NCBI GenBank assembly: GCA_900545875.1
Contig: URAQ01000004.1
Span: 1 to 22,590 of the forward strand
Direction of reading: 5' to 3'
Length of the DNA stretch: 22,590 nt
Source: an uncultured Collinsella sp.
GTDB lineage: Bacteria; Actinomycetota; Coriobacteriia; Coriobacteriales; Coriobacteriaceae
Translations under genes and position numbers: made by a program
Shown here: positions 7,882 to 18,837 of the stretch, piece by piece
Position numbering within the stretch: position 1 is the stretch's first letter
Layout: the number at the start of each line of letters is the position of its first letter
Notes under the pieces: generated by a model
Databases searched by the model: none
Told to the model about the DNA's origin: nothing
Seen by the model: the letters and a program-made list of their open reading frames with translations, nothing else

Positions 7882-7890
7882 TGTTGATTA
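7882..7890 (-). promoter_or_regulatory. Possible DnaA box next to the trio motifs
   Basis: TGTTGATTA on the plus strand is TAATCAACA on the minus strand. It shares TCAACA with the variant boxes elsewhere in the window and differs from TTTTCAACA at two positions. It lies 12 bases from the trio motifs, where a box that starts the DnaA filament would be expected. The match is weak and the position is the main argument. Confidence 0.4.
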
Positions 7891-7954
7891 CTCCCAAAGA
7901 CGCAGGTCAGACCCAGAAAGAGAATCGACAGCAACCTGTGTGCAACAGGGGTGG

Positions 7955-7963
7955 TTTTCCACG
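7955..7963 (+). promoter_or_regulatory. Putative DnaA box TTTTCCACG
   Basis: One mismatch, at the last base, from the relaxed consensus TTWTNCACA. It lies in the dnaA-dnaN spacer between the unwinding element and the stronger box at 8035-8048. TTTTCATCA at 7983-7991 is a further weak candidate between them. Confidence 0.5.
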
Positions 7964-8034
7964 TTCAAAACCTGCGCAAAACTTTTCATCACCGCGGGTT
8001 GGGTTTTAGACACCTTATGCCCGTGGTTTCGACA

Positions 8035-8048
8035 AGTTTTCAACAGGT
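8035..8048 (+). promoter_or_regulatory. DnaA box variant, 14-mer copy 1
   Basis: AGTTTTCAACAGGT, core TTTTCAACA at 8037-8045. The same 14-mer occurs twice on the opposite strand upstream of the dnaA unit (11232-11245 and 11285-11298). It aligns with an extended DnaA box of the TTATCCACAGG type, with two core changes (A to T at position 3, C to A at position 6). It lies 13 bases beyond the dnaA stop codon. Confidence 0.7.
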
Positions 8049-9782: not shown

Positions 9783-9797
9783 TGTCTCTCCCGTTCT

Positions 9798-11150
9798 TTA
9801 GCTCTGAGCTCGCACGCGAGCGGCGCCGAGTTCGGTCAGATGGTATTTCTGGCCATGCTTGATGACCAAGCCGGCCTGCGCCAAGTCATTGAGTGTGCGT
9901 GACCAAGTGGGGGCCGAGTTTCCAAACGCCCTCGCCAGATCGGTAGCACCGCACGCTTGATTTTGTGCCAGATAGCCCAGTGCGGCGTTGCCGCGATCGC
10001 TTACGAACACGTCCGGTTGTGGCTGCGCATACTGATTTGCTGCATTAGGATACATCATTTGAGCTGCTGGTTGTTGAGAACCCTGCATCGGCGGCATTTG
10101 CTGTTGAAAACTTTGAGGCCACTGTTGGTAAGGCTGCGGGGTCATCTGCTGGGCCCAGGGGTTGTACTGCTGCTGCGGCATCTGCTGGTACGGCTGCTGA
10201 TATCCCTGCTGGTACTGCTGTGGGAACTGCTGGCCATACCCCAGTGGCGGCATCTGCTGATATGGATATCCCTGTTGGTACGGCTGATAGCCCATTTGCT
10301 GGCCGCCCGGTGCCCCCGTCGCCTGCTGCATTGCTGCTGCATCCTGATCCGCCAGCGGCATGGCCTCTGGCGCGTTTGACGGCATCGACATCGATGCCGC
10401 CTGGGACTGTTGTGTAGGAAGCATTCCGGGCTGCTGCATCTGTCCCACGGGGCGCTGCATCTGTTGCGTTGCCATGGGCTGCTGCGCAAAAGCTCCCGGC
10501 AGGGGATATGTGGGATGCTCCGTCTCGGGCCGCACGGCAGCGCCGCGTCCGCCGGCGCGTTCGATTTCCTGCACGCGTTTAGGGTTCAGGCTTACCGTAA
10601 CCACGGTGCCGTTGCCCATATTGTCCTCGATGGATACGGCACCGCCGGCGTTTTCCAAATACTCCTGCACCATGGGAAACCCTGCTCCGGTTCCACGGAT
10701 GTAGCGCTTCATCTTGCTGTTTGCGCTGGTAACGCCAAAGTCGAAAGCGCGCTCCTTGTCGTCGATGCCGGGCCCCTGATCGGCAAAGCGGATGGTGTCT
10801 CCGCCGTCCAGAATCGAGATGATGGGCTCGGCAAAGTGCGCGTGGATAAAGTTTTCGACAATCTCGCGGATGACCATGAGCGAGATATGGCCACCTTGTT
10901 CTTTCATGCACTGGTAGACGGTGTTGGTCGTCTCTTCCAAATACGTGCGGACATCTTGCGGATCAATGACGATCACACGCGGTGTCGACAGCATGTCGTC
11001 ATAGACGGCGATGCGCGCGGCGTACATGGCTTTTGGCGCCTGCGTGGTCGTCTGCTCGCCTTCCTTACGCTCTTCGCGCACGCCGGTGATGTGCTCGTTG
11101 TCGGGTGCCGGGTCTCCGGAATCGACCATGGTGTAAAAGTCGTCAGACAT
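9798..11150 (-). CDS. GHKL ATPase with Q/Y/P-rich linker and winged-helix domain, function unknown
   Basis: I do not recognise this 450-residue protein as a named family. Residues about 40-190 form a GHKL (histidine-kinase-type) ATP-binding domain: N-box EIVENFIHA (96-104), G1 box DQGPGID (124-130), G2 box GTGAGFPM (153-160), and GNGTVVTVSL closing the fold. There is no histidine phospho-acceptor domain, no membrane segment and no sensor, so it resembles stand-alone SpoIIAB/RsbW-like domains more than a classical kinase. Residues about 219-380 are low-complexity, very rich in Gln, Pro, Tyr and Met (for example QQYQQGYQQPYQQMPQQQ). Residues about 383-447 look like a winged helix (ATDLARAFG, SRTLNDLAQAGLVIKHGQKYHLTELG). 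Only 15 bases separate it from dnaA, which it precedes in one unit. It may control origin firing or dnaA expression; that is inference. Confidence 0.88.
   Translation of the reverse strand: MSDDFYTMVDSGDPAPDNEHITGVREERKEGEQTTTQAPKAMYAARIAVYDDMLSTPRVIVIDPQDVRTYLEETTNTVYQCMKEQGGHISLMVIREIVENFIHAHFAEPIISILDGGDTIRFADQGPGIDDKERAFDFGVTSANSKMKRYIRGTGAGFPMVQEYLENAGGAVSIEDNMGNGTVVTVSLNPKRVQEIERAGGRGAAVRPETEHPTYPLPGAFAQQPMATQQMQRPVGQMQQPGMLPTQQSQAASMSMPSNAPEAMPLADQDAAAMQQATGAPGGQQMGYQPYQQGYPYQQMPPLGYGQQFPQQYQQGYQQPYQQMPQQQYNPWAQQMTPQPYQQWPQSFQQQMPPMQGSQQPAAQMMYPNAANQYAQPQPDVFVSDRGNAALGYLAQNQACGATDLARAFGNSAPTWSRTLNDLAQAGLVIKHGQKYHLTELGAARVRAQS
10090..10310 (-). repeat. Imperfect short tandem repeats coding Gln/Tyr/Pro tract
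   Basis: The plus strand shows many degenerate units built on CTGCTG with TGGTA or TGATA (for example TGCTGGTACGGCTGCTGATA). Together they encode repeated YQQ, QQY and QQM units on the minus strand. The reading frame is kept throughout. Such tracts can change length by slippage, so copy number may differ between strains. Confidence 0.7.
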
Positions 11151-11213: not shown

Positions 11214-11230
11214 TTTCGACAACTTTTCAA
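11214..11230 (+). repeat. Composite repeat shared by both origin clusters
   Basis: TTTCGACAACTTTTCAA matches 8027-8043 (TTTCGACAAGTTTTCAA) at 16 of 17 positions. In the 8-kb copy it runs into the exact DnaA-box 14-mer. Here it runs into TTTTCAAAA (11224-11232), one base off TTTTCAACA, directly abutting the opposite-strand box at 11232-11245. Confidence 0.65.
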
Positions 11231-11231
11231 A

Positions 11232-11245
11232 ACCTGTTGAAAACT
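11232..11245 (-). promoter_or_regulatory. DnaA box variant, 14-mer copy 2
   Basis: ACCTGTTGAAAACT on the plus strand is AGTTTTCAACAGGT on the minus strand, identical to copy 1 at 8035-8048. With the preceding TTTTCAA it forms a head-to-head inverted pair (TTTTCAA, six bases, TTGAAAA). Near-matches lie at 11245-11253 (TTTGGAAAA) and 11265-11273 (TTCTCAACA). Confidence 0.7.
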
Positions 11246-11284
11246 TTGGAAAACGGACGAAAAGTTCTCAACATTGCCAACATG

Positions 11285-11298
11285 ACCTGTTGAAAACT
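11285..11298 (-). promoter_or_regulatory. DnaA box variant, 14-mer copy 3
   Basis: A second exact ACCTGTTGAAAACT, in the same orientation as copy 2 and 53 bases from it, about five helical turns. The 345-base gap 11151-11495 holds this DnaA-box cluster, the weak promoter candidate facing left, and the rpmH promoter and leader facing right. I see no gene in it. Confidence 0.7.
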
Positions 11299-11393: not shown

Positions 11394-11423
11394 TTGACAT
11401 TTGAACATTGATTTCCCTACAAT
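11394..11423 (+). promoter_or_regulatory. Promoter of rpmH operon
   Basis: TTGACA (11394-11399), 18-base spacer, TACAAT (11418-11423): a near-consensus housekeeping promoter. It starts transcription about 65 bases before rpmH and is the clearest promoter in the window. Confidence 0.85.
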
Positions 11424-11449
11424 CTTCAAGCTCACGTGTCTATATCTGC

Positions 11450-11495: not shown

Positions 11496-11630
11496 ATGAA
11501 GCGTACGTATCAGCCTAATAAGCGTAAGCGTGCCAAGACCCATGGCTTCCGTGCCCGTATGGCCACTAAGGGTGGTCGTGCCGTGCTCGCCCGTCGTCGC
11601 GCCAAGGGCCGCAAGCGTCTCACTGTCTAG
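11496..11630 (+). CDS. rpmH: 50S ribosomal protein L34
   Basis: This is the complete 44-residue L34, starting [19 protein letters not shown] and ending GRKRLTV, highly basic as expected. It binds 23S rRNA in the large subunit. ATG at 11496 has AGGAGG eight bases upstream. The in-frame upstream ATG at 11436 would only add non-conserved residues across the leader hairpin, so I reject it. It is the first gene of the rightward rpmH-rnpA-yidD-yidC-jag unit. Confidence 0.98.
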
Positions 11631-16733: not shown

Positions 16734-17786
16734 CTATGCGTTCTTCTGAACTTTGAAGCGCTGCTTCAGCTGTCCGCAAGCGGCGTCAATATCGTTACCA
16801 CGGGAGTTACGAATCGTGGTCTCGATGCCACGGGACTCAAGACGACGCTGAAGATCCTCAACCTTATGAATCGGCGACGGCTTGAGCGGGCTACCCTCGA
16901 TGTCGTTAAGCTGAATGAGGTTAACGTGGCACAGCGTTCCCTCGCAGAAGTCGCAGAGCGCCTGCATTTCGGGATTCGTATCGTTGACGCCTTCGATCAT
17001 GGCATACTCATAGGTCGGGCGGCGGCCGGTCTTCTCGGTGTAGAGCTGAAGCGCTTCGTGAAGGCGAAGCAGCGTGTACTTCTTAACACCGGGCATGAGC
17101 TTATTGCGCGTCGACTGGATGGCGGAATGCAGGGAAACGGCAAGCGTGAACTGCTCGGGGATGTCGGCAAATTTGCGAATACCGGGAATAACGCCGCTGG
17201 TAGAGACGGTGAGGTGACGAGCGCCGATACCGATGCCATCGGGGTCGTTGAGGATTCGCAGCGCCTTGAGAACCTCGTCGTAGTTGGCAAACGGCTCGCC
17301 CTGGCCCATGAAGACAACGCTCGTGGCGCGCTCGCCAAAGTCGTTGGATACATGAAGTACCTGGTCGACGATCTCTTGAGCGGTCAGAGAGCGCTTGAGG
17401 CCGTTGAGACCGGTAGCGCAAAAGGCACAGCCCATGCCACAGCCTGCCTGGGTGGAAACGCAGACGGAAAGCTTGTTACGACGGGGCATGCCGACGGTCT
17501 CGACGGAAACGCCGTCGTGGTACTCGAGCAGATACTTGCGAGAGCCATCTTTGGAAACCTGCTTGGTGAGTTCAGCCGGCGTGTCAAAGGCAAAAGCCTC
17601 TTTAAGCTGCTCGCGGAAAGCCTTGGGAAGGTTGGTCATATCGTCAAACGAACAAACGTTCTTCTCAAAGACCCATTCGATGAGCTGCTTCGCGCGGAAG
17701 GCGGGCTGGCCAAGCTCGGCCACGAGCTCGCGAATATCGTTTTGGCTCAAGTCGCGAATGTCCTGAGATTTAGTCCTGGGATTCAT
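16734..17786 (-). CDS. rlmN: Dual-specificity rRNA/tRNA adenine C2-methyltransferase RlmN
   Basis: Radical-SAM enzyme that methylates C2 of A2503 in 23S rRNA and A37 of some tRNAs. It has 350 residues. The iron-sulphur CxxxCxxC motif is CGMGCAFC (Cys116, 120, 123). Cys109 and Cys337 (in AACGQL) match the E. coli catalytic pair Cys118/Cys355, which separates RlmN from inactive relatives. The segment usually MGMGEP reads MGQGEP. ATG at 17786 has AAAGG five bases upstream. It opposes the direction of replication and diverges from ddl across 85 bases. Confidence 0.96.
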   Translation of the reverse strand: MNPRTKSQDIRDLSQNDIRELVAELGQPAFRAKQLIEWVFEKNVCSFDDMTNLPKAFREQLKEAFAFDTPAELTKQVSKDGSRKYLLEYHDGVSVETVGMPRRNKLSVCVSTQAGCGMGCAFCATGLNGLKRSLTAQEIVDQVLHVSNDFGERATSVVFMGQGEPFANYDEVLKALRILNDPDGIGIGARHLTVSTSGVIPGIRKFADIPEQFTLAVSLHSAIQSTRNKLMPGVKKYTLLRLHEALQLYTEKTGRRPTYEYAMIEGVNDTNPEMQALCDFCEGTLCHVNLIQLNDIEGSPLKPSPIHKVEDLQRRLESRGIETTIRNSRGNDIDAACGQLKQRFKVQKNA

Positions 17787-17801
17787 GGAAGCCTTTCGAT
17801 T

Positions 17802-17831
17802 TTGGGGAAACGTAGAGGGTATCGCTACAAT
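17802..17831 (+). promoter_or_regulatory. Candidate promoter of ddl
   Basis: TTGGGG (17802-17807), 18-base spacer, TACAAT (17826-17831), placed in the short rlmN-ddl gap about 40 bases before ddl. The -10 is good, the -35 weak. Confidence 0.45.
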
Positions 17832-17871
17832 ATGGTATCAGCTGCAGAAATTATAGAGGAGGAGTCTGCCC

Positions 17872-18837
17872 ATGCCGGGTAAAAGCCTAGAGAACATGCA
17901 CGTAGCGGTCTTGGCGGGCGGTCATTCCGCCGAGCGCGAGATCTCGCTCAATTCGGGAAAGAACGTTGTGGTGGCACTGAAGGAAGCCGGCTACACCTCG
18001 GTGGAGCTGCTCGACACGGCCGCTGATGATTTTATGGTAACCATGGCGACCGGCGGCTTTGACGTGGCGTTTATCGCCATGCACGGTGCCGGCGGCGAGG
18101 ATGGCGCCATGCAGGGTGCCATGGAGACCCTGGGTATCCCCTACACGGCCTCGGGCGTGCTTGCCAGCGCCTGCGGTGCCGACAAGGAGGTCTCTAAGCT
18201 CTTATACGCCAAGGCGGGCATCCCCATTGCCCCCGGCCTTGCGCTCGAGGTGGGCGATGAAGTCGATATCGATCATATCGTCGAGGTCTGTGGCGAGCGC
18301 TGCTTTGTGAAGCCGGCCGTCAACGGTTCCAGCTATGGCATTTCCCTGGTCCATGAGCCCTCCGAGCTGCCCGCGGCAATTGCCAAGGCGTTTGAGTACG
18401 GCGACAAAGTGCTGGTCGAGAAGTGCATCGAGGGTACCGAGATCACCGTCGGCGTGTACGGCGAGGACGACGTGCGCGCCCTACCGATTGTCGAGATTCG
18501 CAAGCCCGAGGACTGTGAGTTCTACGATCTGGACGTGAAGTATGTCGACCCTACGGACATCCATCGTATTCCGGCGCAGATTTCACCCGAGAATTACGCT
18601 CGCGCTCAGGAGCTTGCCTGTGCTGCTCACAAGGCCCTCGGTTGCCTGGGCATCTCGCGCAGCGATTTTATCGTGAGCGAGGACGGCCCCGTCATCCTCG
18701 AGACCAACACCATTCCCGGCATGACCGATACGTCGCTGTATCCGGATGAGATTCGCCACACCGACGACATGACGTTCCCGCAGGTCTGTGACAGCCTGAT
18801 CCGTATGGGCCTTCGTCGAGCGGGCATTGCATGCTAA
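17872..18837 (+). CDS. ddl: D-alanine--D-alanine ligase
   Basis: ATP-grasp ligase making the D-Ala-D-Ala end of the peptidoglycan precursor in the cytoplasm. It has 321 residues. The family N-terminal motif GGHSAEREISLNSG is at 16-29. ATP-grasp elements follow: VKPAVNGSSYGI, VEKCIEGTEITVGV and the metal-binding ILETNTIPGMTDTSL. ATG at 17872 has AGAGGAGGAG seven bases upstream; a second ATG at codon 9 (HVAVLAGG follows) is a less likely start. The stop overlaps the dinG start by 7 bases (ATGCTAA). It probably starts a two-gene unit with dinG. Confidence 0.96.
   Translation: MPGKSLENMHVAVLAGGHSAEREISLNSGKNVVVALKEAGYTSVELLDTAADDFMVTMATGGFDVAFIAMHGAGGEDGAMQGAMETLGIPYTASGVLASACGADKEVSKLLYAKAGIPIAPGLALEVGDEVDIDHIVEVCGERCFVKPAVNGSSYGISLVHEPSELPAAIAKAFEYGDKVLVEKCIEGTEITVGVYGEDDVRALPIVEIRKPEDCEFYDLDVKYVDPTDIHRIPAQISPENYARAQELACAAHKALGCLGISRSDFIVSEDGPVILETNTIPGMTDTSLYPDEIRHTDDMTFPQVCDSLIRMGLRRAGIAC

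Follow-up and report, generated by a model that had tools for sequence, protein, structure and literature searches.

The window that we analysed (the whole 22,590-nucleotide stretch of DNA from an uncultured Collinsella sp.) carries, directly ahead of dnaA and on the same strand, an open reading frame that begins with ATG and encodes a protein of 450 amino acids (its coordinates in Table 1 include the stop codon). The gap between the two genes amounts to 15 bases (9783–9797), and beyond dnaA the window continues, in order, with dnaN, recF, a DciA-like gene, gyrB and gyrA. This position, together with DnaA-box clusters 5' of the gene and behind dnaA, had been described in an earlier note made from the sequence alone, and both clusters were located. 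When the window was scanned with TTWTCMACA, which we take to be the DnaA-box consensus, at up to one mismatch, 26 sites were found as opposed to 9.2 expected, and none of 100 shuffles contained as many. The cluster on the origin side contains exact sites at 11235–11243 and 11288–11296 and one-mismatch sites at 11224, 11245 and 11265, and the second cluster is perhaps the other part of a two-part origin.

Table 1. Features of the dnaA region in the window, with positions counted from its first letter.
Feature	Position	Strand	Basis or remark
Predicted GHKL ATPase–linker–winged-helix gene	9798..11150	-	Open reading frame, Pfam, AlphaFold2, orthologs in place at dnaA
Predicted GHKL ATPase domain	10581..11018	-	Residues ~45–190; PF02518, invariant residues
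Q/P/A/M/Y-rich low-complexity linker	9999..10580	-	Residues ~191–384; length and composition not conserved
Winged helix, MarR/Csa3-like fold	9801..9998	-	Residues ~385–450
dnaA	8061..9782	-	Directly downstream of the ATPase gene, GTG start
DnaA-box cluster, origin side, 5' of the ATPase gene	11224..11296	.	Between the ATPase gene and rpmH
Second DnaA-box cluster	7882..8045	.	Between dnaA and dnaN
rpmH	11496..11630	+	Across the box cluster from the ATPase gene, facing away
Promoter-like TTGACA-18-TACAAT of rpmH	11394..11423		Sequence match

The open reading frame, Pfam and AlphaFold2 agree on the protein that the earlier note had proposed, namely a GHKL ATPase with N, G1 and G2 boxes and a C-terminal winged helix. 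PF02518 (HATPase_c) matches residues 93–189 at E 1e-10, over the Pfam cut-off, and winged-helix Pfam families match residues 385–445 with scores under their cut-offs. The motifs REIVENFIHAHF, DQGPGI and RGTGAGF, which we take to be the N, G1 and G2 boxes of GHKL ATPases, are all complete. At eleven positions of the nucleotide site, 151 of 151 sequences have the same residue: N100 and H103 of the N box (which also includes E96 and E99), D124, G126 and G128 of the G1 box, then, past the lid, G153, G155 and G157 of the G2 box, and finally N177, G181 and T185. The glutamate E96, four residues before the Mg-binding N100, is kept in 145 of 151 sequences and is invariant in two further alignments (74 and 65 rows); in GyrB, MutL and SpoIIAB, a Glu at this position serves as the catalytic base. 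All 65 of 65 relatives match PF02518, and the predicted model has Bergerat-fold topology. These features place the window protein in the GHKL ATPase superfamily, and both binding and hydrolysis of ATP are predicted for it.

The same domain is common to sensor histidine kinases, whose CA domains (KinB 3d36, HK853, ZraS) share PF02518 with the family and among which KinB gives the best PDB sequence match (E 5e-8). These kinases have a DHp domain, a phospho-acceptor and a sensor, whereas the family lacks all three and has a winged helix; they also usually have Asn, not Glu, four residues before the Mg-binding Asn, where the family has Glu. No DHp match appeared among the Pfam families matching the 65 relatives (25 of 30 matching families shown), the AlphaFold2 secondary structure contains neither a four-helix bundle nor a DHp helix pair, and only about 40 low-confidence residues stand N-terminal to the ATPase domain. 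The absence of a phospho-acceptor histidine domain, which had also been claimed beforehand, therefore stands, and on these matches and models a sensor histidine kinase is rejected.

At its C-terminus the model has a winged helix of MarR/Csa3-like fold, whose core is recognisable across phyla and which is predicted to bind DNA. The fold resembles the MarR, IclR, TrmB and Csa3 regulators, and we know of no member of these groups that carries a GHKL domain. A CARF domain gave no match in the family, and the VIA-align list covers mostly the winged helix, so that families beyond it may be similar too. Among 161 of 185 loci (duplicates removed), mean pairwise identity was 0.507 for the ATPase domain, 0.537 for the AAA+ domain of DnaA, 0.512 for DnaA domain IV, 0.414 for DnaN and 0.393 for the winged helix, such that the ATPase is about as conserved as the AAA+ domain of DnaA and the winged helix is the least conserved part among those measured. 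Because the correlations of pairwise identity among the ATPase protein, DnaA and DnaN were uneven (r from 0.38 to 0.81), we draw no claim of coevolution from them.

A short aromatic motif was noticed at the N-terminus (Met, Val or Leu, up to four residues, then FY, FF or FW, as in MSDDFY or MKSFY; about 11130–11150 in the window), and is possibly a docking motif. It occurs in 124 of 229 anchored stretches versus 15 after shuffling, 31 loci without an anchor having been dropped; the count is uncorrected for kinship, and some of the matches fall ahead of the probable start.

The association of this gene with dnaA extends far beyond the window. In a first set of 150 loci (set A), dnaA lies downstream on the same strand in 140, another 2 have it divergent, and the remaining 8 run out of sequence within 400 bases, so that dnaA adjoins the gene in 142 of 142 testable loci. 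Among 80 named loci (set B, the best 80 of 452 relatives), dnaA is downstream in 76 and the other 4 are ends of sequence (76 of 76 testable); among 20 loci picked across the phylum (set D), the corresponding numbers are 15 and 5 (15 of 15 testable). A further set C, which partly re-finds the genomes of set A, has dnaA downstream in 10 of 10. These sets overlap in part (for example, L038 and L159 are one contig), and sets A and D consist of hand-picked genomes as opposed to a random sample, with many of the best matches, L001–L030, being near-identical. The dnaA frame starts at most 150 bases past the end of the gene in 235 of 241 same-strand loci, the rest reaching 450 bases, and in most loci the two are separated by a few bases or have overlapping frames; in L080, where two frames make up dnaA, the closer one is 4 bases from the gene. 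The searches took in whole genomes, and none of the orthologs read with enough flanking sequence was found apart from dnaA. The synteny check on whether homologues are scattered away from dnaA was thus run, and the proposed origin linkage came through it.

Of the 251 loci with at least 500 upstream bases, 237 have one or more TTWTCMACA sites in the 800 bases ahead of the 5' end of the gene, the other 14 being without an exact site, compared with 15 of 239 loci for a control stretch of 800 bases inside dnaA. When only the spacers between rpmH and the gene were considered (224 loci whose spacer could be delimited at both ends), a box was present in 217, versus 10 after shuffling. On the other side, 79 of 189 loci have a site in the 400 bases that follow the 3' end of dnaA.

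The most informative loci are rearranged ones: within a single family of the order (f3), small inversions at the origin have occurred repeatedly. In 13 of these loci (L082, L089, L091, L094, L096, L098, L100, L102, L114, L115, L127, L128 and L129), the gene and dnaA have been turned round as a pair, which puts rpmH behind dnaA and dnaN on the far side of the spacer. In two others (L101 and L106; L276 and L277 in the wider reading), the gene alone is turned and heads rpmH, divergent from dnaA. In all 15, the 5' end of the gene still faces the spacer with the DnaA boxes, and 14 of them, all but L127, contain one or more exact sites within 800 bases. Because its 5' end faces boxes in every arrangement, the box cluster is the constant partner of the gene, even more so than the dnaA transcript. 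Some caution is called for, since the promoter region of the gene overlaps the box cluster and the gene would tend to stay by the boxes anyway: selection would act against any inversion that separated gene and promoter.

In a whole-genome search of the Coriobacteriia, ortholog-level matches (E <1e-20) were obtained in 341 of 396 genomes and none in 55, a split that is a hand count of the search table at E 1e-20. At a looser threshold (E 0.001), 378 of 396 genomes have a match, a figure that includes histidine kinases. Among genomes listed in detail, an ortholog is present in 58 of 71 and 44 of 55 (two picked sets), and in these genomes the orthologs, one in each, are set apart by a wide gap in score (5e-23 or better, with the background at 5e-9 or worse); 56 of the 58 strong matches were retrieved, G005 and G260 being left out.

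The 55 Coriobacteriia genomes in which no ortholog was found are of several kinds. Because 41 have no match to dnaA either, the region is probably absent from those assemblies; one has a weak partial dnaA match only, and in three (G096, G146 and G385) the contig breaks off at dnaA. In the remaining 10, rpmH faces dnaA with no ATPase gene between them (G163, G228 and G330, of one genus; G009, G012, G021 and G030, of one family; G132 and G140; and G062). Since some of these genomes have relatives of the same genus or family that possess the gene, some of the absences look like clean losses. The existence of these junctions implies that the gene is not indispensable everywhere.

At the level of the phylum, a sample of 396 Actinomycetota genomes contains an ortholog (E 1e-12 or better) in 157, of which 38 are Coriobacteriia and 119 belong elsewhere. 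The earlier statement that rpmH faces dnaA directly in most actinobacteria is compatible with this frequency. The named genomes, again the best 80 of 452 relatives, include Candidatus Aquicultor, Hakubella, Oleimmundimicrobium, Subteraquimicrobium, ANGP1 and CSP1-3. Because NCBI taxonomy places Hakubella and Aquicultor in Actinomycetota and ANGP1 and CSP1-3 in Candidatus Sysuimicrobiota, the family spans at least these two phyla, and it is ancient. Some records (L217, L220, L228, L234 and others) bear the labels 'Bacillota' or 'Armatimonadetes', which we give as found in the source. The protein searches considered the best 120 matches, and the figures for spread hold among the matches listed; among these, members are annotated variously as 'histidine kinase', 'ATP-binding protein', 'anti-sigma regulatory factor', 'ArsR family regulator', 'predicted transcriptional regulator' or 'hypothetical protein'. 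A phage or defence origin was considered and rejected, the matches to PHROGs and PADLOC being only at the level of domains, to the ATPase or the winged helix.

The linker between the two domains varies in both length and composition. In the window protein it comprises about 192 residues (26% Q, 15% P, 11% A, 8% M and 6% Y), and its blocks have AlphaFold2 pLDDT values of mostly 39–53. Its median length is 197 in the window's own family, 109 in a second family and 55 in the other families of the order, whereas the class-level set has a median of 35, the named set 30 and the phylum-level set 25; across relatives it varies from about 0 to 280 residues, and its composition moves from Q/P/A-rich to P/A/S/T/R-rich. 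The Q-rich tract reported by the earlier note is therefore present in the window protein but is not general to the protein family. Assembly through this tract, which the note had suggested, did not survive the comparison as a general mechanism: given a linker that is not conserved and that is short in most groups, prion-like or condensate assembly is improbable as the core function. The long Q-rich linker is an added elaboration of the window's family and some neighbouring ones, not a common working part. The families with long linkers are mostly gut-dwelling.

A single weak tandem array (two overlapping rows) within the window linker is compatible with growth by slippage. We also noted that an exact DnaA-box site, TTTTCAACA, lies inside the Q-rich coding tract at 10102–10110, and that the length of the dnaA frame rises with linker length across loci (Spearman 0.44, n = 230, uncorrected for kinship).

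The closest known fold is that of DIP2311 from Corynebacterium diphtheriae (PDB 3lmm), which we take to be a protein with an AlbA_2/Schlafen domain, a HATPase_c_4 domain and a winged helix. Like DIP2311, the models of the family have a GHKL domain followed by a winged helix, but identity between them is 13–15%, and DIP2311 falls outside the best 60 of the 188 sequence matches obtained with E up to 10. Nor is there room for its N-terminal domain in the roughly 40 residues that precede the ATPase of the family, and profiles for AlbA_2/Schlafen and HATPase_c_4 were absent from the matches listed for the window protein and for the relative P0161. To our knowledge, DIP2311 is not linked to an origin. 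GyrB and MutL share the E-x-x-x-N form of the N box with the family, whose profile aligns with MutL over positions 72–131 (E 1.8e-4); these proteins have a transducer domain, in place of which the family has a winged helix.

An intact and invariant ATP site without a phospho-acceptor, a DNA-binding fold and a constant place at the DnaA boxes together point to an ATP-gated regulator of the origin, the dnaA promoter or both, a reading to which we assign about equal chances of proving right or wrong. Binding of ATP, and probably its turnover, in the GHKL domain would alter the shape or the dimer state of the protein; this change would control binding of the MarR-like winged helix to DNA in the origin and dnaA promoter region; and the bound protein would tune the loading of DnaA at its boxes, the transcription of its own gene and dnaA, or both. 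Each step here, from the binding of ATP and of DNA to the site bound and the effect on initiation, is deduced from fold, residues and position. Somewhat more tentatively, the family may constitute an undescribed and ancient class of replication-initiation regulator in which a GHKL ATPase is paired with a winged helix; inherited with the origin in at least two phyla, it would read nucleotide state and act with DnaA at the boxes.

A simpler possibility, which we consider rather unlikely, is that the protein is a plain transcription factor of the dnaA operon (perhaps also of rpmH), in which the ATPase senses ATP/ADP and the winged helix acts as a repressor or an activator at the promoter of its own gene, where promoter and DnaA boxes overlap, with no direct role in melting the origin or loading DnaA. 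The tight placement of the gene before dnaA, on the same strand in most loci, and the likeness of its winged helix to the MarR, IclR, TrmB and Csa3 group would be in keeping with such a role; however, in the two loci where it is divergent from dnaA, the gene still borders the boxes, and counts of 8-mers and dyads in the 224 spacers detected no operator common to the family. This word search recovered the DnaA boxes, the rpmH promoter, the rpmH ribosome site and words confined to single lineages. Since no family-wide operator was found, the winged helix may recognise DNA that is box-like, lineage-specific or less specific.

Two other products of the spacer search deserve mention. The word GGGAAAAC occurs in 25 of 54 loci of L075–L130 as opposed to 3.3 in shuffles, and is not a DnaA box of the pattern used; GAAAGGGA, a candidate operator, was rejected because it is mostly the rpmH ribosome site.

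It is also improbable that the gene is a passive passenger, that is, a housekeeping regulator of something else that has been kept in place because the rpmH-dnaA-dnaN neighbourhood is rarely broken. The order of rpmH, dnaA, dnaN and recF is itself strongly conserved, and the 10 genomes with an intact rpmH-dnaA junction do without the gene, as would be expected of a passenger. But the lack of any displaced ortholog among the loci read, despite whole-genome searches and 15 loci with inversions, and a degree of conservation close to that of DnaA's own ATPase both argue against this explanation.

The weakest alternative, a kinase or anti-sigma factor like SpoIIAB/RsbW that acts on a sigma factor or other partner and sits at dnaA by chance, is very improbable: these proteins do share with the family a GHKL domain without DHp, 33 of 65 relatives have a match to TIGR01925 (anti-sigma F) with E up to 1e-3, a PDB anti-sigma F factor aligns with positions 74–170 of the family profile (E 0.01) and the model opens strand-helix-helix, as does SpoIIAB, yet TIGR01925 scores 25 bits on a compact member relative to a cut-off of 135, the CA domains of histidine kinases and DIP2311 match better, SpoIIAB is without the winged helix that the family has, and no sigma or STAS gene occurs among the part of the window's genes that was scanned.

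The control of replication start outside E. coli, Bacillus and Caulobacter is largely open, and the known regulators of DnaA include Hda, SeqA, DiaA, SirA, YabA and Soj. If the reading of the gene product as an ATP-gated origin regulator is true, it would be an ATP-dependent origin factor of a kind not known among them. The gene is fixed at the origin in bacteria that range from Coriobacteriia of the gut to lineages for which metagenomes are the main source; no published function was found for it, and it hints at an undescribed part of the control of DNA copying in little-studied bacteria, including common species of the human gut. The earlier note knew of no described system with this layout, and none emerged from the open-access full-text literature, in which no paper on such a gene was found (subscription papers and preprints being outside its scope); none of nine passages on dnaA and oriC in PMC4255298 mentions one. 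Because Eggerthella lenta and other Coriobacteriia are transformable, and E. lenta is editable, according to PMC9734109, the role of the gene is directly testable.

Some minor features of the region were also recorded. The rpmH promoter lies within an extended and conserved block (TTGACA..TAcAATC..cagGCTt; 11394–11440 in the window, and in relatives), and the pattern AATCnnnnRGCT occurs in 101 of 224 spacers, with 103 of 105 matches in the direction of rpmH. Elsewhere in the window, an open reading frame of 338 amino acids (16866–17882, plus strand), flanked by parB and a gene for D-Ala-D-Ala ligase, gave no Pfam match at E 0.1. The window's DnaA scores 308 bits relative to the NCBIfam DnaA cut-off of 343.9, and its AAA and DNA-binding domains pass the Pfam cut-offs.
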